This document shows positions 3,571 through 54,533 of a stretch of DNA of 64,000 bases, piece by piece. A model generated the notes under the pieces. The model ran no database searches, was not told the DNA's origin, and saw nothing but the letters and a program-made list of their open reading frames with translations. Origin of the DNA: Arcobacter porcinus (GTDB taxonomy: Bacteria; Campylobacterota; Campylobacteria; Campylobacterales; Arcobacteraceae); the NCBI RefSeq assembly GCF_004299785.2, contig NZ_CP036246.2, forward strand, positions 1,612,001 to 1,676,000, given 5' to 3'. Within the stretch, counting starts at the first letter, position 1. Every line of letters begins with the position of its first letter. Made by a program: the position numbers and the translations under genes.

Positions 3571-3600
3571 TTTTTACATATCATCTACTATATGTAAAAA
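3571..3600. promoter_or_regulatory. Perfect 11-bp inverted repeat upstream of hsdM
   Basis: The arms TTTTTACATAT (3571-3581) and ATATGTAAAAA (3590-3600) are perfectly complementary around an 8-base loop. The site lies between the fic stop and the hsdM start. It could be the fic terminator, because reading on the minus strand it is followed by a long T run, or an operator for hsdMS. The sequence shows the symmetry; the role is inferred. Confidence 0.5.
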
Positions 3601-3612
3601 AATTGTAATTTT

Positions 3613-3681: not shown

Positions 3682-3698
3682 TTTTTGATGAATTTTAC

Positions 3699-27364: not shown

Positions 27365-28642
27365 TTAAAACTCAAATTCCCCAATATATGGAACTGCTCC
27401 ATATTTACCTTGGATATAGTGCTTTTCAAAATCATCACTTGCTCTTACCCCTTTAATTTCTAGCATAGAATATAAATTTGTAGAACCATATTTATCTTTT
27501 TGTGTAAACCAAATTTGCTCTCTTTTAAATATAGTTGGTTTTAAAAGATTTGTATCGTGAGTTGTAAATATTAGTTGAGCGTTGTTTTTATTTATTTTTT
27601 TATCATTAAATAGTTTGATTAAATGCTTTGTTAAAATTGGATGCAAACTACTATCTAACTCATCTATTAAAAGTATTTTTCCATTTTTTAAAGTATCTAT
27701 TACAGGTGCAGAGATTTTAAAAAATTTTTTTGTACCAAATGATTCATCTTTTTCTAATTCAAAAGTCTCAAATGCTGTAAAATTGTTTTTATCATCAAAA
27801 ACTTTATGAGAAGTATTTATACTAATAGATTTTACACCACCATTTTTTAGTATCTCTTCTTTTATAAAATCTGGTAATGGTACTTTTGAAACATCGTCAA
27901 AATGAATGTCATCTTCTTGCAAATCGATATTTTCTATCCCTATATCTGCTGTTTTTACTAGATTCACTATCTCTTTTTTGAACTCTTCATCTTCCATTTT
28001 TCTAAGTGTAAAGTTCATATAGCCGTTGCTATCTGTACCGTCTAGCATATTGAAATTTGAAAACCATTTTAAAATAGATTTTGATATAGTTGAATTTGCT
28101 AATCTATCACAAACCCATAAAAAAAGCTGATTTTGTGCAATATTTATTTTTTTGTTTGATTTATCAAAAAAGCTATAACCCTCTTTGAATTTTTGATTGT
28201 TTACATAATCTTCTTCATCTATATCTCTATAAAAAAGTTTTGCTTCTTTGCCTTTTTCATCTTCAAATAACCACTCACTATATATTGTTGTGCTATCTAG
28301 TTCAAAACCATATCTATATTTTTTTTCATCTATAAAAAAAACCATCTCAAAACTACTAGAAGACTCTTTTGTGCTAGTGTTAAGTCTAAAAGGAGAGTAT
28401 GGTAATATATCTGTAGATTGGATAATTTTGTATTTATTTAAAACTAAAGTTCTCATAAAACTCATGGCTTTTAAAATATTTGTTTTTCCACTTGCATTTG
28501 CACCATATATCACAGATGTTCTAAGTAAGTTGTAATTTCTAATAGAAAAAGAGTTTTTATCTTCTTTTGAACTATCTAGCATACTAAAAGTTGCTTTTTC
28601 TTTGATAGATAAAAAATTATTCACTGTAAATTGTAAAAACAT
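27365..28642 (-). CDS. rloA: RloA-like AAA ATPase
   Basis: This is an ABC/OLD-like ATPase of the kind that drives RloAB and related ATPase-TOPRIM defence pairs. The start MFLQFTVNNFLSIKEKATFSML is typical of the family. Walker A is YGANASGKTN (about 48-57), the signature region is kept, and Walker B is ILLIDELDSSLHP, followed by LIFTTHDTNLL. The 425-residue length is complete. Its stop meets the rloB start, so the pair was coupled, but rloB is deleted; the ATPase either now works alone or is a leftover. It follows the SLOG gene by 84 bases on the same strand. Confidence 0.87.
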   Translation of the reverse strand: MFLQFTVNNFLSIKEKATFSMLDSSKEDKNSFSIRNYNLLRTSVIYGANASGKTNILKAMSFMRTLVLNKYKIIQSTDILPYSPFRLNTSTKESSSSFEMVFFIDEKKYRYGFELDSTTIYSEWLFEDEKGKEAKLFYRDIDEEDYVNNQKFKEGYSFFDKSNKKINIAQNQLFLWVCDRLANSTISKSILKWFSNFNMLDGTDSNGYMNFTLRKMEDEEFKKEIVNLVKTADIGIENIDLQEDDIHFDDVSKVPLPDFIKEEILKNGGVKSISINTSHKVFDDKNNFTAFETFELEKDESFGTKKFFKISAPVIDTLKNGKILLIDELDSSLHPILTKHLIKLFNDKKINKNNAQLIFTTHDTNLLKPTIFKREQIWFTQKDKYGSTNLYSMLEIKGVRASDDFEKHYIQGKYGAVPYIGEFEF

Positions 28643-28726
28643 ATTATAAATCCTAATTAAATTTTAGAATTGTAGCAAAATAAACTTTATATTTGTAATT
28701 TTTTTACAAATATATGATTTATTATT

Positions 28727-29458
28727 TTAAAAACTAGCAAAAAGAGAATTGTTTTTAAAAAGTTCTAAAATATTTGCTTTGTATTTTATATTTTCATTTC
28801 CTCTATAATTTTCTACTATAAAATAGTTTTTATATTTTTGATTTATAGATAGTTTGTCATTGTAGATTTTTAAAATATCATTATTTATTAGCCACTGTTT
28901 AATCTCATTTGCTTTATTTATATTTGTATATATTTTTGACTCTTTTATTTTATTATAAATCTCTGTTTGTGTGTAGCCTGTATTTTGTTTATAAATATTT
29001 GTAATATTTTCTATATTCAACAACTCTTTATCTAAAAACCTATTTTCTAAAGTATAAAAAACTTTTAATTTTTTATTATTTGTTATTGCTCTTTTAATAT
29101 TCTCAAAACTTCCTTTGCTTTTTCCATCCCAAATCACAAAAGAATAATTACTATTCAAAGTCATAAATTCATCTTTAAAAGTCTGTTTTTCTCTTTCTCC
29201 AAAAAGATTTTTATCATAATCTACTTGTATGATTTTAAATTTATTAGAAGCTAAATTTCTAGGAGTTTCATAAATAGTGCAAATATTTATGTTTGTATAG
29301 TTTTTTTTATAAAAGTATTGTTGAATCAAAGTATCAACTCCTTTTGCATCTCCAACAAAAATTTTAAACCCTTTATCTATAATATTTTCCAAACTTTTTA
29401 TAACATCATTTGCTAAATATTTTATAGAACTTGAGCCACTTATGAAAACACTACTCAT
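28727..29458 (-). CDS. SLOG-domain protein (YspA/DUF2493-like) with C-terminal helical segment
   Basis: SLOG domains are Rossmann-like folds that bind or cleave nucleotide ligands and are common in conflict systems. The N-terminal 135 residues read FISGSSSIKYL, a strand, then FVGDAKGVDTLIQQYF (the G-x-x-x-G-x-D signature) and FVIWDGKSKGSFENIKRAI (the second Gly-rich strand with bound-phosphate Ser/Gly). The remaining 100 residues (about 150-243) look like a winged helix (TEIYNKIKES to NDILKIYNDKLSIN). It overlaps the PRTase gene by four bases (ATGA), so the two products are probably made together. I know of no exact named family for this architecture. Confidence 0.72.
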   Translation of the reverse strand: MSSVFISGSSSIKYLANDVIKSLENIIDKGFKIFVGDAKGVDTLIQQYFYKKNYTNINICTIYETPRNLASNKFKIIQVDYDKNLFGEREKQTFKDEFMTLNSNYSFVIWDGKSKGSFENIKRAITNNKKLKVFYTLENRFLDKELLNIENITNIYKQNTGYTQTEIYNKIKESKIYTNINKANEIKQWLINNDILKIYNDKLSINQKYKNYFIVENYRGNENIKYKANILELFKNNSLFASF

Positions 29459-30180
29459 ATTTTTACATCCTTTGCAACTATTAAAAAGAAATTTAATTTA
29501 TTTGTTTTATCATACAATTTCTTTAATATTGTAGCAATAGAGCTACCATTTCCCATAACATCATCTATAATTATATATTGATCACTCAATGATAACAAAC
29601 TTTCATTTAATGTATATTTTGAAGAAGAGTTTTCTACACCAGCTTTAAAAGTTTCTATACTTTTACTATCCTGTCCACCATTTTTTATAATAATATTTGC
29701 TACTTCCAAAGATGATAATTCTTTAATCTGATTTACAATTTCATCTGGAATAAGTGAACTAGATGAAATGTAAGAGAGTTTTATATTTTTGTATTTATTT
29801 ATTATTTCTTTAACATAAGTATTCATCTCATCTGCAAAAAATTTAATAAAAACTTTTCTTTCTTCTTTTTTAATTGGAGGACTTTTAAGATATTTGAGTT
29901 TATAAATCTTTTGTCCATAATTTGTAAACCTTTCATAGATATTTCCATTTGAAGAAAAAGTTTTTATCTTTGTTATAATATTGCCATTTTCTCCTATATT
30001 TTCAAATTCTTTATAAAAATCTAAAATAACACCTCGTCCTATTTCTATTTTATCGTAATAAATTTTTACAAATAAATCATCAATAGTTTCTTTTTCTATA
30101 TAACTTAAATTTGTATTGTCAATTATAGGAGTTTCTTTATTTGTATAAATGTCTATTTTGAATTTTGTAAAATCAATCAT
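29455..30180 (-). CDS. Phosphoribosyltransferase-domain protein
   Basis: Type I phosphoribosyltransferases use PRPP to make or salvage nucleotides. The C-terminal half (about 110-241) has the PRPP-binding loop IIIDDVMGNGSSIATIL, equivalent to the usual DD-x-x-x-x-G-T/S, and an upstream strand (KLSYISSSSLIPDEI). The first 110 residues do not match any domain I recognise; they are beta-rich (KIYYDKIEIGRGVILDF). It sits between a dGTPase-type gene and the coupled SLOG gene. It could generate or degrade a nucleotide signal or act as a regulator; the acceptor base is unknown. Confidence 0.75.
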   Translation of the reverse strand: MIDFTKFKIDIYTNKETPIIDNTNLSYIEKETIDDLFVKIYYDKIEIGRGVILDFYKEFENIGENGNIITKIKTFSSNGNIYERFTNYGQKIYKLKYLKSPPIKKEERKVFIKFFADEMNTYVKEIINKYKNIKLSYISSSSLIPDEIVNQIKELSSLEVANIIIKNGGQDSKSIETFKAGVENSSSKYTLNESLLSLSDQYIIIDDVMGNGSSIATILKKLYDKTNKLNFFLIVAKDVKI

Positions 30181-30223
30181 AAATTTCCTTGTGTTTAAAT
30201 AATATTATTATATAAAAGATAGT

Positions 30224-31558
30224 TTAATATCCCATTCCACTAAATTGATGAGCTAAATACGTTGCATGATTATCTGTCATTCCAACAATGTAATCTGTAA
30301 CTCTTTGATATTTTTCATATAAGGTCATATTTGATTTAGGTGAATTTTCTTCTCCCATAAGTTGTAAAACTCTTCTGTTTTTAAAACTCATTTGTTTTAT
30401 ATCTTTTTTTTCATGCAATTCATAAGTAGCTTTTATCATATTATCTAATAAAACACCCAATATATTATAAGCTCCAAGCTCTAATTCTATTTTTCTTGTT
30501 TCATTAAATACTTTTTTAGATGAAAGCTCTTTAGCAAGTTTTAATCCTGATTTTAAATTTTCATCTGTAAATAAAAATATTAAATCTTTCACATTTTCTT
30601 TTAGTAATCTTTCATAATTCTTTTCAAAAATATTCGAAGTATGATTTGCTAAATTATTTATTCCTTTAGCTATTAATTTTGAAAGTTTTTGTATTTCAGT
30701 TAAATTTTTATCATTTAAAACTTCTTCAAAAAAAAGTTTAGAAGTTAAATCTATAAATATCTTTTCTAATTCTTCAAGTCTTAATATTTTCAATTCAACA
30801 GCATCTTGAATATCAAGAAGCCCATAACATATATCATCAGCCGCTTCCATAAGATAAGAAAAAGGGTGTCTTAATATAATATCATCTTGTATTAAATTAA
30901 ACTGTTCAAAAATATTAATAATATTGCTTTTTTCACTTTGAAAAAAACTAAACTTATCTTTATTGTTTTTATCATCATTTGAAGCCCAAGGATATTTTAT
31001 CATAGTAGCAATAGTTGAAAATGTTAAACTCATTCCAACTTCAAAATTGTGTTCTATTTTAGAAACTATTCTAATGCTTTGAGCATTTCCATCAAAAGAT
31101 ATAAAATCTTTCTTTTCTTCTTCACTTAATTTTAATAAATATTTCTGATTTTCATCTTTTTTAAACCACTCTTTTATAACTTCTTCACCAGCATGTCCAA
31201 AGGGTGGATTTCCTATATCGTGTGCCAAACAAGCAGTCTGAACTATGTAAGCAACATCATAGGGATTTATATCTTTATCAAATTTATTTTTTAATATCTC
31301 ACCTGCTTTCAATCCCAAACTTCTTCCTACACTTGCAACCTCTAAACTATGAGTTAATCTATTATGAATATGGTCATTTTTTGCCAGTGGATGAACTTGA
31401 GTTTTTTTAGAAAGTCTTCTAAAAGAGTTTGAAAATATAACTCTATCATAATCTCTGTGATAGGGTGTTCTATATTCATTTTCTAATTTGTCTTCTTCTA
31501 TTTGCACAGTTCCATCTTTTATTTTATATCTTTTATTAGATAAAAGTTGTTTTTGCAT
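30224..31558 (-). CDS. HD-domain deoxynucleoside triphosphate triphosphohydrolase (dGTPase type)
   Basis: These enzymes split dNTPs into deoxynucleoside and triphosphate, with dGTP usually preferred. The 444-residue protein has [36 protein letters not shown] (metal His), [17 protein letters not shown] (the HD pair) and the last metal residue in [18 protein letters not shown]. The length is normal. It may be a plain dNTP-pool enzyme, but dGTPases are also known anti-phage effectors that starve phage replication. It leads a same-strand run with the PRTase and SLOG genes, 43 bases apart. A TATAAT-like box (31595-31590) lies upstream, and AAGGA precedes the ATG. Confidence 0.88.
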
Positions 31559-31650
31559 TTTGTTTCCTTGTAAATTAAATTTATATTAAATTATACAAAT
31601 TTTTTATAAATATATTATGATATATTGTGGTAAAGTTATACTTTATTCTC

Positions 31651-31687
31651 ATATAAATAAAATATAATAATTTTATTTTATTTATAT
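31651..31687. repeat. 13-bp perfect AT inverted repeat
   Basis: ATATAAATAAAAT (31651-31663) and ATTTTATTTATAT (31675-31687) are perfect complements with an 11-base loop. It is 93 bases upstream of the dGTPase start and could be a terminator-like hairpin or an operator. All bases are A/T, so chance symmetry is more likely than for a mixed sequence. Confidence 0.4.
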
Positions 31688-31803
31688 GGGATATATTGGC
31701 TTGTATTTATACTGAAGTAGCTCTTTTTTGTAATTTTATAATTTGTCTAAACATAAAAATTGATTTAACAATTTCTATAAATATTAAAGTACAAGGAGTA
31801 ATT

Positions 31804-31866
31804 ATGACATTATTAGAGTTTCAATGGGGTGTGTTGTGTGGGGGAATGGTTTCCAATCCACGTTGA
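31804..31866 (+). other. Possible 20-residue leader peptide
   Basis: An ATG six bases after AAGGAG opens a 20-codon frame (MTLLEFQWGVLCGGMVSNPR) ending at TGA. No gene follows on the plus strand; the next gene, FRG, is convergent. The strong ribosome site is the main support. It may instead be part of a structured RNA. Confidence 0.35.
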
Positions 31867-31947
31867 ATAACTACTTCGATAGTATAAATCTTGCTAATTT
31901 TTACCAATAACGACACACAGAGAAGTTCAATTCTTCTCACCCACACC
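31828..31947 (+). ncRNA. Possible structured RNA with complementary GU/CA ends
   Basis: GTGTGGG (31836-31842) pairs with CCCACAC (31940-31946), and GGTGTG (31828-31833) could also pair with the 3' CACACC. The interval between holds ACTA-CTTCGA-TAGT and the hairpin GAGAAG-TTCAATT-CTTCTC (about 31920-31938). The GC-rich ends stand out in a very AT-rich neighbourhood. The pairing is seen; expression and function are inferred. Confidence 0.3.
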
Positions 31948-31956
31948 AAAATTCAA

Positions 31957-33033
31957 CTATTTAGCAAACTGTGGAGCTGTAAATCTAAATCTTACTTTAG
32001 ACATAGTTTCATCAAATTTTCTTTCCCAATATAAAACATCAGTATCTAATAAATTATCCCAACATAAATCATTTTTTTCAATAATTTCAATTTTTAAACT
32101 ATCTAAAGTTTCATCTTTTTTTAATGTTTTTCCACTCCAACTTTTAAATCTTTCTAAAGCTTTATCTATTTGTTTTTGAGTAAAAGAGTTTAATTTACTA
32201 CATTCATTAGCTAAATCAGCAGCACTATCATCTGGGAAAAGTGTTTTTCCTTCATCAAACATTTTCCATATTTTTCTAGATTGAGAAATAGAGTGTTTAA
32301 AATAGTATTTTTGAACTCCATTAACAGTATCCAAATTTGTATCCTTTGAAACTTTTAAAATATTTGCTCTTTGCTGTTCTGGTCGAGGTAATGGTTGCCA
32401 TCCTAGATAATCTATTTCTACATCGCTTTTGAAATAAGGTGGTGTCATAAAAAGTTCATAAATTCTATATATTACTCCTGCTTTTTGAATATTACCTATT
32501 GGATGATATTTTCCATTTTCATATTTACAAGTAGCAAAAAAACAAGCAACATCAAAATTGTTTGTTATATCCAAATAATCTGTATGTAAACCATAGTGCT
32601 GTGCTATTCCTGTAAGATTTATACTTAATGGATTATCATATATTGAAATTGAGCTAGAAAGCATTACGAAAGGATGAGTTTCTAAAAGCTCTTCAAATGC
32701 AATAGTCCTACAAATATTTAAAAATTGTTCTTCTTCTGTTTTACATCTATCTAAAGTAGTTTTGCAAACTCCAAAGTCTTCATTTTGTCCTCTATAATGA
32801 GTCATAGTAAATTCAACACCACTTCTAAGTTTAACATAGCCATCTTTCCCAACTACTGGATATAAAGCTTCCATATCATAAAAGACTATTCCACTAGCAT
32901 CACCATTATGTGTAAATTGTCTACCAGTATTTATAGTCTGTATTTTAAGTTTTTGTTTTAAAGATTTTAAAGTTGGGTAAAAAATCATAAATCTACTTTC
33001 ATAATATTTTTTAGTTTTTATAGTAATTTGCAA
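31957..33033 (-). CDS. FRG-domain protein
   Basis: FRG domains (named for a Phe-Arg-Gly motif) are found in phage, plasmid and defence-island proteins of unknown activity. Here the core reads THYRGQNEDFG and AQHYGLHTDYLDITNNFDVACFFA, matching the second conserved segment (H-Y-G-x-x-T-x-x-L-D). The protein is 358 residues from a TTG at 33033. No clear ribosome site precedes it, so ATG at 32985 is also possible. The C-terminal 90 residues are helical without a known motif. It is 46 bases downstream of the 691-residue nuclease-like gene, same strand, likely co-transcribed. Confidence 0.75.
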   Translation of the reverse strand: MQITIKTKKYYESRFMIFYPTLKSLKQKLKIQTINTGRQFTHNGDASGIVFYDMEALYPVVGKDGYVKLRSGVEFTMTHYRGQNEDFGVCKTTLDRCKTEEEQFLNICRTIAFEELLETHPFVMLSSSISIYDNPLSINLTGIAQHYGLHTDYLDITNNFDVACFFATCKYENGKYHPIGNIQKAGVIYRIYELFMTPPYFKSDVEIDYLGWQPLPRPEQQRANILKVSKDTNLDTVNGVQKYYFKHSISQSRKIWKMFDEGKTLFPDDSAADLANECSKLNSFTQKQIDKALERFKSWSGKTLKKDETLDSLKIEIIEKNDLCWDNLLDTDVLYWERKFDETMSKVRFRFTAPQFAK

Positions 33034-33079
33034 GTTTATAAAATATTTTCAAAACAGACTTCTTTGCTCTAAATTTAGT

Positions 33080-35155
33080 TTATTTTTTATAAGATTTTAT
33101 ATACTTAGTATAGTCATATATATGCAATATATTATCAACATTCATACTAGTTTGCACTAAAGTCTTTAAAATATCAATAAAATCATCATCTCTATATTTC
33201 TCTACTACTAGTTCTAAAGGCAGAAAAAGTGTTTGATTTAAAGAAACTCTAATATCATAATCTTTAGATAGTTCATCTATGATTTTTTGTAATTTGTCTA
33301 AATACTCATTTGCTTTATTAAAATCACTTTTTTCTTCTTTTACATTAAATCTTAAATCAATTATTTCAAGCAACATAGTTTTTGTTAAATTATTCATAAT
33401 ATTAAACCAATTATTTGTAGATATTGAGATTTTAACTATATTTTCATTATTGTATTTTAACTCTTTTTTATCGTTAAATACAATATTTTTATATTTTCTT
33501 ATATTTTTTTCATGTCTAAATAGTTGTAGTTGTGAATGAACAAAAGATAAAGCCAAATCTTTCAAAATATATGAATCTGATCCATTAAAAGCTTTAGCTG
33601 TTAGATACTTGTTTTTACTTTCAAAAAATATTATGTCTTTTTCTAGTTTTAAAGCTAAATCACTTTCTGGATTTTCATTTTTTGGTGGAGAATAGTTTCC
33701 TGAAAACATTTTATAATTGTGTTTATTCTTTATCCTTTCAAAGATATTTACAAGTAGGCTTTCTGCATTAATGCCTATTTTTTGATTTATATCTTTATCT
33801 ATTTCTTGTCTTATTTTTTCTACTAAAGAGTTATAAAAATTCATTTTAAAATATTTAAACCCAATTATTAAATATATATTTTTATGTTTTATAATTGGAT
33901 TCATAGCAAAAAGATTTGTAGATTGTTCTAAGCTATTTAAAGATGAATAATTAATATTTACAAGATTTGAGTCTATAGAATAGAAATCTAAGATTTTTAA
34001 ATTGAAAGGGAAAGGTTCATTTTTTTCTATTTTTATAATATTACAATTGCATTTATCCACAAAAATGAAAAAATCTATAAAATTTTCTATAGTAAATCCA
34101 AGCTTCTCTAAAAAGAGTTTTTCACATATACTTGGTTTTACAATATTTTCTATATATTCTATTAAAACTGTAGTTTTTAGTTCATAGATTGGATAAAAAT
34201 TTGTATATAAAATTTGATTACTTAGATGCTTAAGTATTCTTGTATGTGGTATATTTATTAATGAAAATTTATCTTCCTTTAACTGATATAATCCAATAAA
34301 AGAACTTAATAAATTTTTAATATTTATAATCTTTTTTATATCTTTATTTTTATATTTTGATTTTGAAATATTTTTTATTAAAATATTTATAATATATTTG
34401 TATGGTATAGTATACTCTAAATTGTTTCTTTTTTTATTTTCTTTATATAGCTCTAAAATGAAGTCTATAAAAAAATACAAATCGATATGGACTAGTTTTT
34501 TTTCTATCTTTTGAACTATTCTATCTTCTTGTCCTTTTTTAAAAATAACTACTCCATCTATAATCTCTAATTTTTCTTTTAGTTTTTGTTCTATAATATT
34601 TTTATTATCTACTAATCTATGTAAGAAATTAAAATCAGGATTATTTGAATAACTCTCACAACACATATTAAAATCCGAATTATGCATCAAATTTAATAAA
34701 TAAATTTTTTTTATTAAATTTTTCCAAAAAATAATATTTTGAAAAGAAACAATATTTCCATTTTTACAAATTCCATAGTAGATTAGAGCATTTGAGATAG
34801 AAAAATAAAACTTTGCGTCTTTCTTTGAGAATATTTTTAATAGATAATTTATTTCGATTTGCTTTGAAATATCTCTTAATATTTGTAAATTCATAAAAAA
34901 TTCATCTTTAAAAGAAAAAATAAACTCTTTTATATGCTCTTGATAAGATTCTTTTAAAAGTAAATAGTGTATTTTTTCAGAATCTTTTTTATAAATATTT
35001 AAATCAGGCTCACTATCTTTAAGTATTTTTAGTAGCAAATTAATTTCATTTTCCGTATTTATGTTTTTTAAATTATCAAATAAATCTCTGTGTTCAATTA
35101 GAACTTCATTTACTAAAGCAATAAAAAGGTTTGTATTATTTTTTCTTATACTCAT
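33080..35155 (-). CDS. Large helical protein with C-terminal PD-(D/E)XK-like nuclease motif
   Basis: I do not recognise a family. The 691 residues are Lys/Asn/Ile-rich and mostly helical, with no membrane segment. Near residues 495-520 the sequence ENPESDLALKLEKDIIFF is followed directly by ESKNKYLT. An Asp, a beta strand, then E-S-K is the arrangement of the PD-(D/E)XK nuclease core (D...ExK), with a helix bearing a possible Glu before it (GINAESLLVNIFERI). I infer a nuclease domain. Codon use is even more AT-rich than the flanking genes, suggesting transfer. It lies upstream of the FRG gene, within the defence-like island. An alternative is a non-catalytic protein with a chance motif. Confidence 0.6.
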   Translation of the reverse strand: MSIRKNNTNLFIALVNEVLIEHRDLFDNLKNINTENEINLLLKILKDSEPDLNIYKKDSEKIHYLLLKESYQEHIKEFIFSFKDEFFMNLQILRDISKQIEINYLLKIFSKKDAKFYFSISNALIYYGICKNGNIVSFQNIIFWKNLIKKIYLLNLMHNSDFNMCCESYSNNPDFNFLHRLVDNKNIIEQKLKEKLEIIDGVVIFKKGQEDRIVQKIEKKLVHIDLYFFIDFILELYKENKKRNNLEYTIPYKYIINILIKNISKSKYKNKDIKKIINIKNLLSSFIGLYQLKEDKFSLINIPHTRILKHLSNQILYTNFYPIYELKTTVLIEYIENIVKPSICEKLFLEKLGFTIENFIDFFIFVDKCNCNIIKIEKNEPFPFNLKILDFYSIDSNLVNINYSSLNSLEQSTNLFAMNPIIKHKNIYLIIGFKYFKMNFYNSLVEKIRQEIDKDINQKIGINAESLLVNIFERIKNKHNYKMFSGNYSPPKNENPESDLALKLEKDIIFFESKNKYLTAKAFNGSDSYILKDLALSFVHSQLQLFRHEKNIRKYKNIVFNDKKELKYNNENIVKISISTNNWFNIMNNLTKTMLLEIIDLRFNVKEEKSDFNKANEYLDKLQKIIDELSKDYDIRVSLNQTLFLPLELVVEKYRDDDFIDILKTLVQTSMNVDNILHIYDYTKYIKSYKK

Positions 35156-35171: not shown

Positions 35172-35804
35172 TTACTTAACTAAACACTCCATTAACTCAT
35201 TTACACTATTTTTATTTATAACTTTTAAATTTTTATCAAAAATACCAAATCCATAAGAAACTCCAATAAAATCTATATTGTTTTCTTTTGCTCCAATAAA
35301 ATCACTTATACTATCCCCAATTAAAACGGTATTTGATGTATCCGATTTCAATTCATCAATACAAATTTTTACGATATCACTTTTGGTTAATCTATTCTCA
35401 AAATCTGCACCTTGAATAAAATCACAATATTTATCTATCTTAAAATGAGATAATAACATTTTTGCATAATCATCTCTTTTATATGTTGCAATAGCAATCT
35501 TTTTGTTATTTTCTCTTAATAAATCTAGTAATTCAAAAATTCCATCATATACTTTTGCTTTTAGCAAATACTTATTCTTATAAATTTCTCGAAAATAATT
35601 AGAAATTTCAATAGATTTTTCATCTGTTAAATTATAAGTTTTTTTAAAAGATTTAATTACTGGTGGACCAATAAATGACTTTTTAATTTCCATACTCAAC
35701 GGAGTTAAGTTAAAAAAATCTATTGTATCATCTATACTACAAACTAAACCTTCAGATGTATCCATCAAAGTTCCATCAAGGTCAAATAAAACAGTTTTAT
35801 ACAT
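35172..35804 (-). CDS. HAD-superfamily phosphatase (Gph-like)
   Basis: HAD phosphatases remove phosphate from small metabolites through an Asp nucleophile. The motifs are VLFDLDGTLMDTSEG (motif I, about 5-19), IAIATYKR (motif II Thr), and VLIGDSISDFIGAKENN (motif IV acidic pair) with a cap domain between (about 20-85). The 210-residue length suits phosphoglycolate-phosphatase-like enzymes. Its ATG lies inside the aldolase gene's end (8-base overlap), so it belongs to the glycan operon; the substrate is likely the phosphorylated product of the aldolase, by analogy with Kdo-8-phosphate phosphatase. It is the last gene of the operon. Confidence 0.83.
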   Translation of the reverse strand: MYKTVLFDLDGTLMDTSEGLVCSIDDTIDFFNLTPLSMEIKKSFIGPPVIKSFKKTYNLTDEKSIEISNYFREIYKNKYLLKAKVYDGIFELLDLLRENNKKIAIATYKRDDYAKMLLSHFKIDKYCDFIQGADFENRLTKSDIVKICIDELKSDTSNTVLIGDSISDFIGAKENNIDFIGVSYGFGIFDKNLKVINKNSVNELMECLVK

Positions 35805-37386
35805 TTTCTTTCTCTTCTTTAAATATCGAAGGAGTTATAAAATTAATATTTATTTTATCTTTATTAATAAAATCTTTAATTTGTTGATTCATTAATTCTA
35901 AAGTATCAGTTGATACTTCATATTCTAAATATTCATCATAATAGCTATTTTTATATAGTAAAAAACCATCAAAACCAGCAATAGAAACTTCTTTCTGTCC
36001 TATATCTATTAAAAATTGTAAAAACATCAGCATTGAGTTATCTACTATATTTCCATCTTCTATTATCAATTTATTATAATCAAGTGTATATTTAAACTTA
36101 TTCTTTGTAGGAGTTATATTTGAAGTTGCTATCAAATTATTAAAATTAGAAAGATTGTAAAATAAAGAACTATATCTTTTAGAGTTTGATATAAATATAT
36201 AATCTAATTTATAATTATTTACAATGTTGTTTATAGCTATTACAATACAATTATTATCTTTTATATATTTTTGAATATCATCTTGATTTGTAGCTAAAGT
36301 TTTTCCAGGAGCAAGTAATAAGATATTTTTATTTAGAAGTTCATTTTTAAGTTTTTCTCTACTTATTTCATCATCTACTTTATTAGCCTGATAGATTTTA
36401 TAAATATTTTCTATATGATTTTCATCATAATTTAGTTTTTTTGATTTCTCTATTTGTGATATTATTTCATTCACAGCTTTTATAGAAAGTGTTTTTTTCT
36501 CTATTAAATAATTTATATAATTTGGATGACAGTCATTTAAAGCTGATAAATAATACTTAAAAGAGTACCCCCAATAATATTTTTTATATATTTTTAAAAT
36601 AGTACTATCTAAAGCTTCGAGAATATAATCAACTTTATAATCTGTTTTATAAAATTCATTTAAATGCATAGCTAATAATTCACTAGGAGCATTTCCAGCA
36701 CTTTTCCCCATACCATAAATACTTCCATCAATAGCTATTTCTCTATTTTTATTTATTTTAAGTAACTCAATACTATTTGCATAAGCTAATTGAAAATTAT
36801 TGTGAGAGTGGTAGCCAATCACAATACCTTTTCTGATATTGTGATTTAGTATTTCAAAATAGTGAAATAATTCTTCTTTATGCATTAAACCATATGTATC
36901 AACTATAGCAACAGAATAAGGATTTAATTTATTTATCTCATCACAAAAATCTAATATTTCTCTATCTGTATATGATGTAGTTGAAACAAGTTGCAAACTA
37001 ACTAAATAGCCTTTTTCTTTAATCTGCTTCGCTAAATCAATAGCCTTATACATATTTACTTTTTTAAAAATGATACGAATACCATCAATAAAATTATCCT
37101 TTGACTCTTCAATATTTTCAATACCACAAGTACCATAATCAATCATTGCAAATATTTTAGAAGTTTTTTTATCTATATTATTAAAAATTTTACTAAAGCT
37201 ATTTGTATTTGGAACAATAGTTTTATTAATATCAAACTCTACTCTTTGGTCTAATAGCCCAATTTCTATAAAATCAACTTTTGCATTAATTAAACTTTCT
37301 AGTATATAATTTGCTGTACTTTTCCCAAAATTCCAATCATTTACATAACCACCATCTCTTAAAGTACAATCTAATAGTTTAATCAT
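35797..37386 (-). CDS. HMGL-family aldolase fused to a C-terminal Rossmann-like domain
   Basis: The N-terminal 280 residues form an HMG-CoA-lyase/4-hydroxy-2-oxovalerate-aldolase type TIM barrel. It has LLDCTLRDGGYVNDWNFG (catalytic Arg and metal Asp), VDTYGLM, GYHSHNNFQLAYAN (His-x-His metal site) and DGSIYGMGKSAGNAPSELL. These enzymes join or split a 2-oxo acid such as pyruvate and an aldehyde. After a helical linker (about 290-340), residues 345-529 read as a second alpha/beta domain (LLLAPGKTL, DYIFISNSKRY, VSIAGFDGF) resembling nucleotide-sugar-binding folds. Its neighbours are a KdsB-like CMP-transferase and a HAD phosphatase, so it probably makes a ulosonic acid. The exact reaction is inferred. 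Confidence 0.75.
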   Translation of the reverse strand: MIKLLDCTLRDGGYVNDWNFGKSTANYILESLINAKVDFIEIGLLDQRVEFDINKTIVPNTNSFSKIFNNIDKKTSKIFAMIDYGTCGIENIEESKDNFIDGIRIIFKKVNMYKAIDLAKQIKEKGYLVSLQLVSTTSYTDREILDFCDEINKLNPYSVAIVDTYGLMHKEELFHYFEILNHNIRKGIVIGYHSHNNFQLAYANSIELLKINKNREIAIDGSIYGMGKSAGNAPSELLAMHLNEFYKTDYKVDYILEALDSTILKIYKKYYWGYSFKYYLSALNDCHPNYINYLIEKKTLSIKAVNEIISQIEKSKKLNYDENHIENIYKIYQANKVDDEISREKLKNELLNKNILLLAPGKTLATNQDDIQKYIKDNNCIVIAINNIVNNYKLDYIFISNSKRYSSLFYNLSNFNNLIATSNITPTKNKFKYTLDYNKLIIEDGNIVDNSMLMFLQFLIDIGQKEVSIAGFDGFLLYKNSYYDEYLEYEVSTDTLELMNQQIKDFINKDKININFITPSIFKEEKENV

Positions 37387-37389
37387 AAT

Positions 37390-38127
37390 TTAATTACCTT
37401 TTTCTATTTTTTCATACATTATTTTTCTAACTTTTTCTAAATCTTTTAGAGTATCAACTGATAAAGAATTACTTTGTACCATTTTAAAAAATACAGGGAT
37501 ATTATTTTCTAAAAATCTTATCATCATAATATCTTCTACTTTTTCCCATTCACCGCTTACAGAATTACAATAAAAATCTAAAGCTTTTTTATTAAAACAC
37601 TCTATTCCTATTGTTTTTTTATATTTAAATTGAACTGATTTATACGGATATGGTATTGGTGTTCTTGATAAAGATAGACACTGACCATTTTTGTTTGTAA
37701 TTATTTTTATATTTGCAGAATCAATAGTTTCAGCTGGGTCAATAAGTTCTCTCATTGCTCCACGAATTAAATATTCACCATCAATTTTTGTTGGAATTAC
37801 AGCTTCAATAACATGTGGTTCAACAAGTGGCTCATCTCCACAGATAACTACATATGCATCGGCTTCAATAATATTTGAAAATTCATTTATTCTATGTACA
37901 TGTGAAGGGTGTTCGTTTGAAGTCATAACAACATTCATTCCGTTATTTTTACAAAAATCTTCTATTCTTTTGTCATCTGTTGCAACATATATTTCATCCA
38001 ATCCTTTAGCTTTTTTTGCTTGTTTATAAACCCGCCAAATCATAGGCTTACCACAAATATCTACAAGAGGTTTGCCCTCCAGCCTACTAGAACCATATCT
38101 AGCAGGTATTACTCCTATAATTTTCAT
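37390..38127 (-). CDS. KdsB-like CMP-ulosonic acid cytidylyltransferase
   Basis: These enzymes use CTP to activate 3-deoxy-ulosonic acids such as Kdo. The 245-residue protein starts IIGVIPARYGSSRLEGKPL, the CTP-binding signature (R-x-G-S-S-R-x-x-G-K-P), then VATDDKRI, CGDEPLVEPH and the sugar-binding part with RTPIPYPY. The length is that of KdsB. Its location in an accessory glycan operon and its divergence from strict Kdo enzymes suggest another acid (the aldolase product) as substrate, not the core-LPS Kdo. It ends four bases before the aldolase start and overlaps the GT29-like gene by four bases. Confidence 0.82.
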   Translation of the reverse strand: MKIIGVIPARYGSSRLEGKPLVDICGKPMIWRVYKQAKKAKGLDEIYVATDDKRIEDFCKNNGMNVVMTSNEHPSHVHRINEFSNIIEADAYVVICGDEPLVEPHVIEAVIPTKIDGEYLIRGAMRELIDPAETIDSANIKIITNKNGQCLSLSRTPIPYPYKSVQFKYKKTIGIECFNKKALDFYCNSVSGEWEKVEDIMMIRFLENNIPVFFKMVQSNSLSVDTLKDLEKVRKIMYEKIEKGN

Positions 38128-39689
38128 TTTTTATCCTTTTTGGTAGTGGTTTTTATAGTATCTCTATAAATATTTTCAATATTTTGTATATAGTCCTCTG
38201 TTGAAAGCTTAATAACTTCTAAAACATTTTCATCGCACTCTACTAATCCCAACTCATAAAGTCTTTTTAAATATATATGCCCAGCAACTAAGCTATCTCC
38301 CCCAAGAAATAGCCAATGCAAAGTTGGTAATCCCCTATAATTTTCTAAATAAGCATTTGTGGACATAAAAAAATTCATACTAAAAAGAGAAACTTTTTTT
38401 GCACCTGAACCAATTAAAAAGATTGTAGTTTCAGGAACATTATTTAAGTTTATTCCTGACATTAAAGTTTTACTTCCATATAGTTTTCTTTTTTTTATAA
38501 CAGGGATTTTAAATTTAAAGTTTTTTAATATAGTGCTATCTAAATTTTTAAAAATTAAACATTTAACCTTTTCTCCAACTATAAACTTACTATTTTTCAT
38601 ACATCTTGAAGCATGAATATCCCCATTATTAAAAGATCCAATATCGGTTTTTGAACCATATATTAGTGAGTTTAGATTTTCAGGATGATAAGAAAAACCT
38701 GTTCTAAGTGTAAAGTCATGAGAATCAATCTTTTCTCCTGATTTTGTTTCTACTGGCATTGGAGCTACAATCGCTACTGATTTATTGGAGATAAACTTCA
38801 TAAACTCTTTTTCTTCTTCATTTGCTAAAAGTTCAAAAGATTTTGTAAAGTTTTTGTTTGTAAATAGATTGTAATAAAAAGTTAAAGTATTCAAAATATT
38901 TGGATTTATTTTTAGTCTGTTTGCTATATCTAGTATCTTTTTACTCATCTCAAAGTCTAAAGTTTCAATAGAAGCAAAAAATGCTCTTCTTATAGATAGT
39001 TCATCTAGAGTTTCAATAGAGTTTATGCACTCTAAAGATTTAAAAGCTATCTTTTTTCTAAAAGAATAAGATTTACTTGGGAAACCTAGCAGTGTTGTAA
39101 TTCGTTCTAGAAGCTCTAATTGACTTATGAAAAGATTATCATCTATATTTGGAACTATTGGAAGTTTGTTTGTAAAACTAAATATATATAATGCACAATT
39201 TAAAATAAAATCTTCTATATCTTTGCTAGTTTCTGGAAGCTCTAATAGTTTAATAATTTTATTTATATTTTCTAAAGCAATATCTCTATCTTCTTTACCT
39301 CTACCATAAAATGAATCTAAAAGAAGTATCTCTATAGATTTTTTTACTATCTGATTTTTGGCTTTTTTTGAATATGATAGTTGATTTGCTAAATCTATAA
39401 GTAGAATATATTCATTCCATTTTTTAAGAGTCAATTTTATGCCTGAATAGTTATTTATCTTATAAACTAATTCAGTATAAATAATTTTTTGAACAATTGT
39501 ATATATCATACTAATTTTTACACTTATAATTTTTTTATTATTTTTAGGCATAAATCTATCTATATAATTTAAATAAAACATAAAAACTTTAAATCTAGAA
39601 AATCCTTTATCTTTTATCTTTAGTTTAAAAATATTTCTTTTAACTACTTTTAAAAAATAGTTAAAATTCATTTTCAAAAAACCTCTCAT
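38124..39689 (-). CDS. GT29 sialyltransferase-like protein with N-terminal helical region
   Basis: The 521-residue protein has an N-terminal helical part (about 1-300, no clear membrane segment). Its C-terminal domain resembles GT29 sialyltransferases. VAIVAPMPVETKSGEKIDSH (about residue 310) continues DFTLRTGF, like sialylmotif L (G-x-x-IDSHDFVLRMN). Further on, LMSGINLNN and IFLIGSGAKKVSLFSMNFF match the position and feel of motif S (P-T/S-G, then strand, G-F), and TLHWLFLGGD may carry the His. GT29 enzymes transfer CMP-activated ulosonic acids, and a CMP-transferase is the next gene. The similarity is by eye and distant. Confidence 0.6.
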   Translation of the reverse strand: MRGFLKMNFNYFLKVVKRNIFKLKIKDKGFSRFKVFMFYLNYIDRFMPKNNKKIISVKISMIYTIVQKIIYTELVYKINNYSGIKLTLKKWNEYILLIDLANQLSYSKKAKNQIVKKSIEILLLDSFYGRGKEDRDIALENINKIIKLLELPETSKDIEDFILNCALYIFSFTNKLPIVPNIDDNLFISQLELLERITTLLGFPSKSYSFRKKIAFKSLECINSIETLDELSIRRAFFASIETLDFEMSKKILDIANRLKINPNILNTLTFYYNLFTNKNFTKSFELLANEEEKEFMKFISNKSVAIVAPMPVETKSGEKIDSHDFTLRTGFSYHPENLNSLIYGSKTDIGSFNNGDIHASRCMKNSKFIVGEKVKCLIFKNLDSTILKNFKFKIPVIKKRKLYGSKTLMSGINLNNVPETTIFLIGSGAKKVSLFSMNFFMSTNAYLENYRGLPTLHWLFLGGDSLVAGHIYLKRLYELGLVECDENVLEVIKLSTEDYIQNIENIYRDTIKTTTKKDKK

Positions 39690-40087
39690 TGTGCAAACTC
39701 CTTTATCTTACTACTAGAAATATCCTCAGTCCTTTTCAAATAAACCACCTCACAAAACTCTTTTAGAAAATCAAACTTTCCTTCCCAATCATCACCTATG
39801 ACAAAGACATCAACTCCATACTTTTTTATATCTTCAAGTTTTTGTTCCCAAGAGTTTTCAGCTATTACCATATCCACACAATCTATATGCGAAACAATTT
39901 TTGCTCTTTGTTCATAGCAAATCACAGATTTTTTATTTTTCAAACTATTAAACTCATCACTTGAAACAGCAACTATTAGTCTGTCTCCAAGCTTTTTTGC
40001 CCTTTGTAGTAAATTTAGATGCCCTATATGAAACATATCAAAAGTGCCATAAGTGATGACTATTTTCTCTTTTTTCATCTCTTTCAC
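39686..40087 (-). CDS. tagD: Glycerol-3-phosphate cytidylyltransferase
   Basis: The enzyme makes CDP-glycerol from CTP and glycerol 3-phosphate. The 133-residue protein has the nucleotidyltransferase motif TYGTFDMFHIGHLNLLQRAK (HxGH), RLIVAVSSDEFN, the family-typical FVIGDDWEGKFDFL and the closing LKRTEDISSSKIKEF (I-S-S-S/T). Its length is the normal TagD length. It overlaps the membrane-protein gene upstream and the GT29-like gene downstream by four bases each. CDP-glycerol is the donor that the LicD-type protein of the same operon could use. Confidence 0.92.
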   Translation of the reverse strand: MKEMKKEKIVITYGTFDMFHIGHLNLLQRAKKLGDRLIVAVSSDEFNSLKNKKSVICYEQRAKIVSHIDCVDMVIAENSWEQKLEDIKKYGVDVFVIGDDWEGKFDFLKEFCEVVYLKRTEDISSSKIKEFAQ

Positions 40088-40812
40088 TGTTTTTTTAACT
40101 CCTTGTGTATTGATATTAAATTTATAGAAAATGAAGATAAACTTCTAAAATAGAGCCTTGAGAGCATAAATGCCAATAAAATATTTATCAAAACTATTTT
40201 TATCCCACCAAAATACAAAGCTATGATTAAAATAAAAGTTAGATAAAAACATATATTTCCAAATGTTTGGAAAATGATTTGATACTCTTTTTTCAAAGAG
40301 TCAAAAGCTACTTTTCTTGCATAAGATACAAAAATAAAAAAACAAATTATCAAAAAAAGTGATATATAAAAATCAAGAAACAAAACCAAAGAAAAAATCA
40401 AAACTATACTTATAATATCGCAGTTTATATCTATAGCTTTTTTAAAAACTCTATTAAAAACCACTTTTTTTAGTACAGCATTTTCGCTACTTTTGTATAT
40501 ACTCCAAAGATTTTCTTTTAATTTTAAAGAGATTTTACTAATATAAAGTTTCCCAAAAATAGTGATAATAACAGCTACAAAGAAAACAAAAATAAAACTA
40601 TAAAAAACTAAATTTATAGAGAAATCTTCACTTATAAAACCATTTATTGAAGCTGGATTTTCAAGTATTAATATTATTTTTAAAGGTATAAAAAAAGATA
40701 CCACAGAAGATATTGATACAATACTTGTAAAAAATCCCAAAAACCATATTTTTTTCTTGTTCATCAATACTTTATTTATATATGAAAAAATATCTTCAAA
40801 AAAACCAATCAA
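40084..40812 (-). CDS. Polytopic membrane protein, ABC-exporter TMD-like
   Basis: I see about five to six membrane segments in 242 residues (around 25-45, 65-88, 133-150, 152-172, 185-205 and 205-222). Cytoplasmic loops contain SKISLKLKENLWSIYKSSE, reminiscent of ABC-exporter membrane domains, but there is no ATP-binding domain in the protein and none is encoded beside it. It lies between the LicD-type protein and tagD and overlaps tagD by four bases. A transport or scaffold role for the glycan or its lipid-linked precursor is possible; this is not shown. Confidence 0.55.
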   Translation of the reverse strand: MIGFFEDIFSYINKVLMNKKKIWFLGFFTSIVSISSVVSFFIPLKIILILENPASINGFISEDFSINLVFYSFIFVFFVAVIITIFGKLYISKISLKLKENLWSIYKSSENAVLKKVVFNRVFKKAIDINCDIISIVLIFSLVLFLDFYISLFLIICFFIFVSYARKVAFDSLKKEYQIIFQTFGNICFYLTFILIIALYFGGIKIVLINILLAFMLSRLYFRSLSSFSINLISIHKELKKQ

Positions 40813-40817
40813 AGCAT

Positions 40818-42050
40818 CTATTCCTTTATAAATGGAATATTGATTTTTTTATCTACAACTATTTTTTGATTTTCAAGCATAGATAAAACTTTTTCATAAC
40901 TCATTTTTGGCTCTTTTCCTTGAGTTATAAATACAAGTCTTCTCAAGAAAAAAGATATAGAGTAAAAATTTGAAACAACAGTTAAATTTGGAGTTCCAGT
41001 GCTACAGCTAAACTCTTTTACAGGAGTTCTCCAGTCACCATAATTTTCAGTTAAATATACATCAGCATTGTTTGGACAATATAGTTCAATACCTTCTAAA
41101 TTATCAATTACCAATTCAAATGGGCTATTTTCCCAAAGATGAATTTTGCTTCCATGAACTATTTTGCCATTTTGTCTGTAATGTATAAACAAATCTATTT
41201 GTATACCTGATTTGTCTATAAGTTTGATTATGCCTATTCGATTATCATAAAATATCTCATCTTTTTCTATTTTTATATTTGGCATATATATAATATTTTT
41301 TATAGTGATATTTGGTAATTTTTTTAAAACTTGAATAAAATCATCAATATTTTCTATATCTTCATAATTTATTCCAAAATCTAGGTCAATATCATGTTTT
41401 AAAAAACCTCTTTCTCTATGAAGTCCTAAAAAAGTACCAGATATTACATACCATGGGTAAATCTCTTTTGACACATACTTTGAAAATATTTTCAAAATCT
41501 CTCTTGCTTGTTTTATAAACTCTTCACTATCTGCATCATCTATTTTCTTTGATTTTTCTATATTTATATTTTGGCTAGTGTTTTGAGCTACATAAATATA
41601 TTTTAGTATCTCATTTGAAATCTCTTTAAACTCATTTATAAATGGTTTTGCTTTTTCTAAATCATTATTTTGTAAATAACAGTGCAAATAAAAAGATAGT
41701 AAAAATAGATATTCTGCTTGATAAGCACTATTTTCTAAGCTATTTTTTCTATTTTTTAAAAAACTCTCTACTGTTTTTACTTCTTCTATTTCTAAATCTT
41801 CTGTAAAATCAAAATTATCATCATTTATAATTCGCAACTTCAAATAACTATTTCTTACAAACCAAGCGGCTCTTCTTAAAGCTGATTTTACATTTTTCTT
41901 AAAAACTTGATTGAAAGATAGTTTTGCACAAGAGAGACTAAAAGTAGAGACAAATGTCAAAGTAAATGCAAAAATTGCTATACAAAATAGCACCAGTATA
42001 TTGTGATCTTTATTTCCAAACTCTATAAGCTTATAACTCTTTTTTATCAA
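40818..42050 (-). CDS. LicD-family phosphotransferase with N-terminal membrane anchor
   Basis: LicD/fukutin-family enzymes transfer phosphocholine, phosphoribitol or phosphoglycerol from CDP-linked donors to glycans. The 410-residue protein has one membrane segment (about 17-45), a helical linker and the catalytic domain (about 190-330), whose core YVISGTFLGLHRERGFLKHD is followed by IDLDFG, giving the G-x-x-L-G-x-x-R and D-x-D pattern. The start is TTG at 42050 after a GAGGGA site. It is the first gene of the operon, facing the divergent HTH regulator across the operator pair. TagD in the operon makes CDP-glycerol its most likely donor. Confidence 0.82.
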   Translation of the reverse strand: MIKKSYKLIEFGNKDHNILVLFCIAIFAFTLTFVSTFSLSCAKLSFNQVFKKNVKSALRRAAWFVRNSYLKLRIINDDNFDFTEDLEIEEVKTVESFLKNRKNSLENSAYQAEYLFLLSFYLHCYLQNNDLEKAKPFINEFKEISNEILKYIYVAQNTSQNINIEKSKKIDDADSEEFIKQAREILKIFSKYVSKEIYPWYVISGTFLGLHRERGFLKHDIDLDFGINYEDIENIDDFIQVLKKLPNITIKNIIYMPNIKIEKDEIFYDNRIGIIKLIDKSGIQIDLFIHYRQNGKIVHGSKIHLWENSPFELVIDNLEGIELYCPNNADVYLTENYGDWRTPVKEFSCSTGTPNLTVVSNFYSISFFLRRLVFITQGKEPKMSYEKVLSMLENQKIVVDKKINIPFIKE

Positions 42051-53386: not shown

Positions 53387-54533
53387 AATCAACTAAATCC
53401 AGAAATTTCTCAACAACTAGAAAAGAGCCAAATACTAAATACTCTTTTGATTTTTCCAAAGATATTTTTTCTATCTCTTTTATTTTAAGTTCTTTTATAC
53501 ACTTTTGTAAAATATCTTTTTTTACAACTCTTTTATCTTTTAGATCCAAAATAAAAAGCTCATCAATAATAGGTTCTAAAATAGTTAAAACTTCTTTAAA
53601 ATCTTTATCTGCATATGAGTTATAAATCAAAGATATCTTTTTGTTTTTAAACTCATTTAATATTACTTTTGCTGCAAGTGGATTATGCCCAACATCAATA
53701 GTGATATTATCTGTAATTTTTTGGCATCTTCCAAAAAGTGGAGTTGAGTTGAAAGTCTCAAAATCAATATCAATTTTTAACTCTTCTAATGCTTTTAAAA
53801 CCAAAGATAGATTTCTTTTTAAATATGAAGCAAAAGTAAACTCATAGTTTATATTAAAATCTTCAACTTTTAAGATTTCTATCTCTTTATTAAACTCATT
53901 TTTCAACTCTTCTTTTACTATTTTTGCTGTTTCAAAAACTTCACTAAACTCTTGATAACCAATTATCATCTTTGTATCAACCGATCTCATTTTTGTCTTT
54001 GCAATATCTTCTATTGTATCACCTAAAAATGAAGTGTGGTCAATTCCTATTGTTGTTATTAAACTTAAATCATTTTTTATAGAGTTTGTAGCATCAAACT
54101 CTCCACCAAGACCAGCTTCAAGAATAAGATAATCACAATTTTTACTGATATAGAATGCTAAAAGAGTTGTATATTCAAAATAAGTAAGCTTTTCTAAAAG
54201 CTCTATTTTATAAATTTCTTGTAAGAATTGGTGTGCTTTGTTTAGTTCTTCATCATTTATATCAAAACCATTTAACCAAATTCTTTCATTGAATTTTTTT
54301 ATATGTGGAGAACTATAATGAAGAGTTTTAAAACCTTTTTTATATAAATAATAGGCTAAAAATCTTCCTGTACTTCCTTTACCATTTGTTCCAACAATAT
54401 GAATTGTAAAAGGAGTTTTTATATGAGTTAGAAGCTCTTTTGAAGCTTTTTCTATGTAGCTATAATCTATTTTATCATAGTACATAGTTTTATGTTCTAA
54501 AAACTCCTTAAGAGTTATATCTTTTAAATTCAT
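53370..54533 (-). CDS. folC: Folylpolyglutamate/dihydrofolate synthase FolC
   Basis: FolC adds glutamates to folates (and makes dihydrofolate). The 387-residue protein has the P-loop IVGTNGKGSTGRFLAYYLY (about 44-62), FEYTTLLAFYIS, LEAGLGGEFDATN, IGIDHTSFLGDTIEDIAKTK, and IDVGHNPLAAKVIL in the C-terminal domain. Length and motif order are standard for the Mur-ligase fold. It lies three bases after lptE on the same strand, within the leuS-lptE-folC run. Confidence 0.93.
   Translation of the reverse strand: MNLKDITLKEFLEHKTMYYDKIDYSYIEKASKELLTHIKTPFTIHIVGTNGKGSTGRFLAYYLYKKGFKTLHYSSPHIKKFNERIWLNGFDINDEELNKAHQFLQEIYKIELLEKLTYFEYTTLLAFYISKNCDYLILEAGLGGEFDATNSIKNDLSLITTIGIDHTSFLGDTIEDIAKTKMRSVDTKMIIGYQEFSEVFETAKIVKEELKNEFNKEIEILKVEDFNINYEFTFASYLKRNLSLVLKALEELKIDIDFETFNSTPLFGRCQKITDNITIDVGHNPLAAKVILNEFKNKKISLIYNSYADKDFKEVLTILEPIIDELFILDLKDKRVVKKDILQKCIKELKIKEIEKISLEKSKEYLVFGSFLVVEKFLDLVDYEAKY

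Follow-up and report, generated by a model that had tools for sequence, protein, structure and literature searches.

We identified a seven-gene operon in a 64,000-nucleotide stretch of the Arcobacter porcinus genome (contig NZ_CP036246.2, positions 1,612,001 to 1,676,000; the whole stretch is referred to as the window) which, with a probability of roughly 0.6, makes and attaches an acidic 3-deoxy-2-ulosonic sugar. The proteins involved would be an HMGL-type aldolase, a HAD phosphatase, a KdsB-like cytidine monophosphate (CMP) transferase and a GT29-like protein. The core role of the aldolase, HAD and CMP-transferase genes (the trio) is well supported by genome context, from which, together with protein families and folds, we infer the chemistry. 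In genomes, CMP-ulosonic acids, such as sialic acids, 3-deoxy-D-manno-octulosonic acid (Kdo) and pseudaminic acid, are usually detected through the phosphoenolpyruvate (PEP)-dependent synthases that make them. In both the NeuB-NeuA and the KdsA-KdsC-KdsB pathways a 3-deoxy-2-ulosonic acid is made, dephosphorylated where needed and activated with cytidine triphosphate (CTP). The operon shares this logic and a downstream sialyltransferase-type enzyme, but its carbon-carbon bond would be formed by a DRE-TIM pyruvate aldolase and not by a PEP-dependent synthase, suggesting a variant of CMP-ulosonate biosynthesis with a new type of synthase.

In the proposed pathway, the metal-dependent aldolase would join pyruvate to a phosphorylated aldehyde, as its fold, metal ligands and partners suggest, yielding a phosphorylated 2-keto-3-deoxy acid. 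The likeliest aldehyde may be a common sugar phosphate; glyceraldehyde 3-phosphate, which would give a C6 acid, is our guess. The HAD enzyme, judged by its family and adjacency, would then take off the phosphate, and the KdsB-like enzyme, whose family and metal site are evident and whose substrate is predicted, would load the free ulosonic acid as a CMP-sugar. Finally, the GT29-like protein would move the sugar to a surface glycan, a step consistent with the exchange of gene partners described below. Among the titles and opening lines of abstracts listed, which are no proof of novelty, we found none that describes an HMGL aldolase working together with a CMP-transferase to make ulosonic acids; PMC12247030 cites papers on erwiniose in which an aldolase for the thiamin diphosphate (ThDP) branch discussed below may have been named already.

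Operon structure

An earlier note on this DNA had described a packed minus-strand set of seven genes, and all seven open reading frames (ORFs) were confirmed at window positions 35172-42050 (Table 1). In the 5' to 3' direction they encode the LicD-like, membrane, TagD-like and GT29-like proteins, the KdsB-like CMP-transferase, the 529-residue aldolase and the HAD phosphatase. Four of the six junctions are overlaps of 4-8 bases (4 bases each for membrane protein/TagD, TagD/GT29-like and GT29-like/KdsB-like, and 8 for aldolase/HAD), and the remaining two are gaps of 5 (LicD/membrane protein) and 3 bases (KdsB-like/aldolase). Pfam scores were 116.1 bits for HAD_2, 81.5 for HMGL-like, 134.6 for CTP_transf_3 and 96.6 for CTP_transf_like, and the 242-residue membrane protein had no Pfam match up to an E value of 10. 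Family profile scans detected neither a KdsA nor a NeuB domain in any of the seven proteins, in agreement with the same note.

The GT29-like gene has different partners in two strains

In our view, the strongest sign of CMP-ulosonate production by the trio came from the GT29-like gene, which was rare (2 of 104 genomes of the family). The second carrier, a draft genome of the same genus (G016), encodes a GT29-like protein that is 78% identical to that of the window, and the neighbors of its gene are a NeuB gene (216.5 bits), a CBS/cupin gene and a CTP_transf_3 gene that runs off the end of the contig (93.6 bits); a short aldolase was the only one found in this genome. Thus, one strain pairs this kind of transferase with NeuB and a CMP-transferase, and the other pairs it with the aldolase, HAD and KdsB-like proteins, which fits the earlier proposal that the aldolase replaces the usual synthase.

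GT29 enzymes transfer ulosonic acids from CMP donors, according to one article (PMC13171606). Three genomes of the same order encode proteins related to the window protein (for one genome, at E values from 2.7e-6 to 1e-5), and two of these proteins matched PF00777 in their C-terminal parts, with 73.2 and 61.5 bits. A search of PDB with the window protein alone gave nothing at E values up to 1, and a four-sequence profile that included the two intermediates retrieved ST8SiaIII (GT29 structures) at 4.5e-7.

Conservation of the trio within the family

The aldolase-HAD-CMP-transferase combination, which had been proposed from the window alone, recurred in other genomes. Among the 104 genomes searched, 78 had an aldolase match, in most cases a short paralog of about 320-350 residues, and the long-type aldolase occurred in eight genomes besides that of the window. 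Seven of these eight had the aldolase, its C-terminal domain and a KdsB-like domain fused in a single open frame of 768-783 residues; in the eighth (L009), a separate NeuA-like gene followed the aldolase. The fusion, or in L009 the NeuA-like gene, was followed by a gene for a HAD protein in six of the eight; flanks of about 1.5 kb were available for most of these relatives. As a control, 21 short-paralog loci with similar flanks were examined, and none (0/21) contained a CMP-transferase, this HAD or a ThDP enzyme. In view of the fusions and the 0/21 short-paralog loci, we rejected a chance neighborhood as the origin of the trio.

The genes adjoining the fusions included GT4-family genes just upstream in L008, L011 and L014 (138.9-146.2 bits) and a polysialyltransferase-family gene in L007 (positions 474-1484; PF07388, 36.8 bits, cut-off 23.3). 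In one genome (G057, locus L015), a NeuA-like gene was located 0.7 kb downstream of a short-type aldolase. Two 503-residue frames (G077 and G078), which matched aldolase residues 1-491 at 28%, were left out of the comparison. Short HMGL paralogs as such occur in most genomes of the family; one of them, of 323 residues (L003/L125, G000:C1:1124805-1125776), lies beside a gene that appeared ribonuclease H-like by eye.

Two contexts of wider aldolase relatives

We examined 80 further loci, the best 80 of at least 582 confirmed in a species-representative genome collection, so that the counts describe close relatives and not the whole family. A ThDP enzyme was present in 60 of the 80 loci when profiles were run over the locus, or in 55 by clustering within five genes, in 48 of which its gene was the first or second downstream of the aldolase. 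A KdsB- or NeuA-like CMP-transferase occurred in only 13 loci. By these numbers, the aldolase family is not devoted to ulosonic acids, a point on which the earlier proposal lacked support in the form given. The two partners were never found together (0/80; Fisher p = 1.7e-8 for the clustered counts, with relatedness ignored), and seven loci, several of them on short contigs, had neither. On the aldolase tree, which had a 440-residue length limit that dropped L015, the CMP label required 4 changes compared with 19.8 in shuffles, and the CMP and ThDP contexts are therefore mostly inherited, with a few switches. No aldolase relative was found in the viral contigs searched.

Nine of the 13 CMP loci had the window order of CMP-transferase, aldolase and HAD, and these belonged to Bacillota, Bacteroidota, Fusobacteriota and Cyanobacteriota/Melainabacteria. 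A HAD profile match was present in 10 of the 13. Neither NeuB nor KdsA had a match in these loci (10-18 kb each); the NeuB profile had a positive control in its match to L059, and the KdsA search, which matched nowhere, is of unproven sensitivity. An NAD-dependent epimerase-type gene was present in 40 of the 80 loci, and an RfbH-type (DegT-family) gene in 25 of the 55 ThDP loci versus none of the 13 CMP loci.

The ThDP context resembles known pathways for branched sugars. According to one report (PMC12247030), CDP-4-keto-3,6-dideoxyglucose (CDP, cytidine diphosphate) is coupled to pyruvate by YerE and to a hydroxylated keto acid by the YerE-like ErwE, whose reported preference is for 4-hydroxy-2-oxo acids as donors. 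Such acids would be the product type of aldolases of this class. The alternation of two different keto-acid users beside one aldolase supports a 2-keto acid as its product, dephosphorylated where the HAD protein is present. The aldolase and HAD may then serve as a general source of 2-keto acids, with most of the examined relatives feeding a ThDP enzyme that couples them to a CDP-4-keto sugar. Many of these relatives, like the YerE/ErwE pathways, have a ThDP enzyme, and some have RfbF/G/H-type genes (named by eye and Pfam); the window operon differs in having a CMP-transferase in place of the ThDP enzyme. No thiamin pyrophosphate-enzyme domain was detected in its seven proteins, and the ThDP profile had no match in L006.

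A separate observation concerns an MptE-like protein with a sialyltransferase-related fold, which was found in five of the 13 CMP loci (L036, L043, L080, L104 and L107) and in none of the 67 others, using a profile built from three of the five matched loci.

Evidence weighing against a CMP-ulosonate pathway

Several observations count against the pathway proposed for the window. The intermediates score above the PF00777 cut-off of 23 bits, but the window protein itself, with 15.2 bits for its C-terminal part, scores below it. The profile match to GT29 structures rests partly on the intermediates themselves, and the His of their HYF stretch is not conserved in the window protein. The contig that carries the second GT29-like gene (G016:C130) is only 3.9 kb long. 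With regard to the phosphatase, no HAD profile match was found near the aldolase in two of the eight family relatives (flanks of about 1.5 kb) or in three of the 13 CMP loci, one of which, L106, has a HAD-cluster gene five genes away; the HADs of family relatives scored 109-120 bits against the HAD profile, compared with 190-273 for most others, and may represent another subgroup. With regard to context, the genes adjoining the aldolase in L009, L012 and L013 matched no Pfam family, and the trios of L073, L093 and L104 are located among genes that by eye had no obvious glycan role. In three CMP loci (L055, L083 and L086) there are other genes from the sugar-nucleotide clusters that characterize ThDP loci; the CMP and ThDP contexts thus share some neighbors. 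Finally, no polymerase, flippase or further glycosyltransferase was found among the 33 Pfam-scanned of the 50 other window ORFs of at least 120 residues, so the operon seems to stand on its own.

A possible CDP-glycerol branch

The TagD and LicD genes of the operon had been assigned by the earlier note to a CDP-glycerol branch of the same pathway. The TagD-like protein scored 164.8 bits with TIGR01518, 0.6 bits under the cut-off of 165.4, and the LicD-like protein matched PF04991 weakly (11.9 bits alone and 24.3 with a neighboring stretch; cut-off 22.6). Together, the two might add phosphoglycerol. An alternative that we consider quite conceivable, if somewhat less than an even bet, is that one operon holds two separate jobs without a link, the trio serving one sugar while the LicD-like, TagD-like and membrane proteins decorate something else. 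The rarity of these genes among the 80 loci is in line with this, since TagD homologs were found in only six and the window LicD profile matched none (a single neighbor cluster, present in three loci, looked LicD-like by eye), but four-base overlaps tie the TagD gene to both of its neighbors.

The CMP-transferase and other ulosonate genes of the genome

The window CMP-transferase scored below the cut-offs of both KdsB equivalog models (138.5 versus 155.2 bits for TIGR00466 and 145.6 versus 281 for NF003948); of three subfamily models, it exceeded NF003952 (218.6 versus 193) and fell below NF009905 and NF003950. A study of Aquifex KdsB (PMC3149649) describes a CTP loop and two metal-binding aspartates, D95 and D219. 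The window protein has PARYGSSRLEGKPL, GDEP and VDT, and, by our own assignment of motifs to residues, the metal Asp pair is present in all 17 aligned rows. Its SHVHR, VICGDEP and KTIGIECF stretches, which we take to line the sugar (Kdo) site, correspond to SGTDR, NVQADEP and GHLGIYGF in the genome's own KdsB. Because of these three differences, Kdo itself seems a less likely substrate.

Elsewhere, the 2.02-Mb genome contains NeuB-family and PF00793 genes (the latter KdsA by eye) and three further places with PF02348, of which one looks like KdsB, one like a NeuA/PseF-type gene next to the NeuB-family gene, and the third is a weak match (22.8 bits). The operon enzyme is therefore an additional CMP-transferase, as KdsB and NeuA/PseF-type genes lie elsewhere; the idea that it is the only one of the genome was dismissed in view of the further PF02348 genes. 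By tree and identity, its nearest relatives were proteins of CMP-context loci (62% to L086) and not the genome's own KdsB. Most of the fused domain of each of L007, L010 and L014 was trimmed from this tree (11-20% of columns), which also excluded L012, and a separate fused lineage could be assigned to L008/L011/L013 only.

These data also bear on whether only the synthase is new, that is, whether the trio reaches an ordinary CMP-ulosonic acid, either CMP-Kdo or a known C7-C9 acid, by another route. We regard this as unlikely. The operon enzyme is KdsB-like, and the fused proteins of L008, L011, L013 and L014 keep GTDR and a Gln before GDEP, like KpsU and, with ADEP, the genome's KdsB, so that some of them could load Kdo. 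Yet KdsA-, KdsB- and NeuB-type genes are already present elsewhere in this genome, and the window enzyme both departs from its KdsB at the three stretches and misses the two equivalog cut-offs.

The NeuB-family and NeuA/PseF-type genes are located near two flagellin-like genes and a Maf-like protein (L126, G000:C1:1905001-1922000), a region that by eye looks like a pseudaminic-acid locus.

The aldolase domain

The aldolase belongs to the HMGL/DRE-TIM superfamily (PF00682, 81.5 bits, cut-off 29). As the earlier note had suggested, we compared it with known pyruvate aldolases by structure prediction. An AlphaFold2 model from a 47-sequence alignment (predicted local distance difference test score, pLDDT, 90.1) was nearest to 3dxi, with a Z score of 30.9 and 26% identity, followed by the 4-hydroxy-2-oxovalerate (pyruvate) aldolases 1nvm, 4jn6, 4lrs, 8ih7 and 4lrt (Z of 27.9-29.4 over 311-321 residues). 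The closest solved structure, 3dxi, is BVU_2661 of Bacteroides vulgatus, a putative aldolase; its entry title describes the N-terminal domain of a longer protein and assigns no function.

Every one of the 47 rows has Arg10, Asp11, His193 and His195, which form an Arg-Asp plus HxH metal site. The His of the RDGxH stretch is, we assume, the catalytic base of 4-hydroxy-2-oxovalerate aldolase, and Tyr14 of the window protein aligns to it; this position is Tyr in 42 and Phe in 5 of the 47 rows. The scores also fell far below the catabolic-family cut-offs (69.9 versus 286 bits for TIGR03217 and 82.6 versus 229 for NF006049). Because the cut-offs are missed and the aligned His is replaced, we do not place the window protein in the catabolic family, and its predicted active site does not match that of the catabolic enzyme. 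Such a match, or a trio not conserved together elsewhere, would have refuted the note's proposal by its own terms, and neither was observed. Compared with DmpG/BphI/AmnG, the window aldolase shares the HMGL fold, the RD and HxH metal site and an aligned C-terminal helical part, but differs in the Tyr/Phe for His and in an extra C-terminal domain; it was found with anabolic partners and without a dehydrogenase partner.

A catabolic or salvage role, in which the aldolase would cleave a ulosonic or related 2-keto acid to free pyruvate, is improbable in our judgment: aldolases are reversible and the fold resembles that of 4-hydroxy-2-oxovalerate aldolase, but, besides the missed cut-offs, the partners look anabolic (the CMP-transferase fusion and, in relatives, sugar-nucleotide and ThDP genes), and family profile scans found no aldehyde dehydrogenase domain in the operon. 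Similarly improbable is an acyl-CoA-dependent synthase of the citramalate/isopropylmalate type beside a CMP-transferase that uses an unrelated acid made elsewhere. Homocitrate and isopropylmalate synthases of the same superfamily do match, at Z up to 26.6 (homocitrate synthase, over 250 residues), but pyruvate aldolases fit better and over longer alignments, and a 2-keto acid product is what both the fusion and the pattern of two partners indicate.

The C-terminal domain of the aldolase

The aldolase has an extra C-terminal domain that was overlooked in the earlier note. As a fold search with the whole model hardly tests this domain, it was folded alone (pLDDT 89.5). Its fold is common to HPPK, SteA, CstI/CstII, ST3Gal1, ST6GalNAc2 and ST8SiaIII (Z of 8.1-10.7); thiamin pyrophosphokinases matched at 7.9-8.4, and the first chain beyond all these at 4.7. 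CstII (1ro8) aligned over 160 residues with a Z score of 10.2 and a root-mean-square deviation of 3.5, and HPPK (8sd5) and SteA (9hmz) tied with it at 10.3-10.7; the GT42 family is thus not singled out by fold. Foldseek found nothing at or below 0.001 with this domain (the best match was marginal, 1.1e-3), and the best PDB match of its sequence profile, a sialyltransferase, had an E value of 0.15, alone not significant.

CstII has a conserved catalytic histidine. Although the window domain resembles GT42 CstI/CstII in fold (Z of about 10), it differs in sequence (about 15% identity) and has no invariant or near-invariant His in the 47 rows; the conserved features are N49, N64, R67, N86 and a GxDG motif (domain numbering). 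The absence of a conserved His argues for nucleotide binding over transfer, and both partner systems end in cytidine nucleotides; for these reasons we propose that it is probably a cytidine-nucleotide-binding domain with a regulatory or tethering role toward the aldolase.

A wider scheme, to which we give slightly under even odds, is a two-outlet module: a DRE-TIM aldolase with a sialyltransferase-fold cytidine-nucleotide sensor and a HAD protein would make free 3-deoxy-2-ulosonic acids and be plugged into either a CMP-transferase, giving new CMP-ulosonates independent of PEP-dependent synthases, or a ThDP carboligase, giving long-branched CDP-sugars. If a pyruvate aldolase does the work of the PEP-dependent synthases, acidic sugars are being missed in the window's own family and in some Bacteroidota, Melainabacteria, Fusobacterium and Clostridia; the same aldolase would also supply keto-acid donors for branched sugars.

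Features of the operon and other genes in the window

Table 1. Features of the seven-gene operon (window positions).
Feature	Position	Strand	Basis
LicD-like protein, 410 residues, start (TTG) uncertain; putative transferase for phosphoglycerol or a similar group	40818..42050	-	PF04991
Membrane protein, 242 residues, no known family	40084..40812	-	Membrane nature by eye
TagD-like glycerol-3-phosphate cytidylyltransferase (CDP-glycerol supply)	39686..40087	-	TIGR01518
521-residue protein with C-terminal GT29-like (sialyltransferase-type) domain; putative CMP-ulosonate transferase	38124..39689	-	PF00777, intermediates
KdsB-like CMP-transferase, distinct from the genome's own KdsB	37390..38127	-	NF003952; metal aspartates kept
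HMGL/DRE-TIM aldolase domain, residues 1-336 of the 529-residue protein	36379..37386	-	PF00682, AlphaFold2 model, fold matches
Aldolase C-terminal domain, residues 338-529; sialyltransferase/HPPK/SteA fold, no conserved His	35800..36375	-	Alignment, AlphaFold2 model
HAD phosphatase, 210 residues	35172..35804	-	HAD_2; homologs near the aldolase in many relatives

Immediately beyond the 3' end of the operon, a defense-like island (27365-35155, minus strand) encodes an AbiLi-type ATPase (PADLOC, 4.5e-96), a dGTPase-type HD protein (4.5e-73), an FRG-domain protein and a 691-residue protein without a Pfam or PADLOC match. Elsewhere in the window, also on the minus strand, are an AEP-TOTE conflict-system primase-helicase (51260-53392, 151 bits) and type I restriction-modification genes (710-7141), in which a Fic protein is located between the methylase and restriction subunits.

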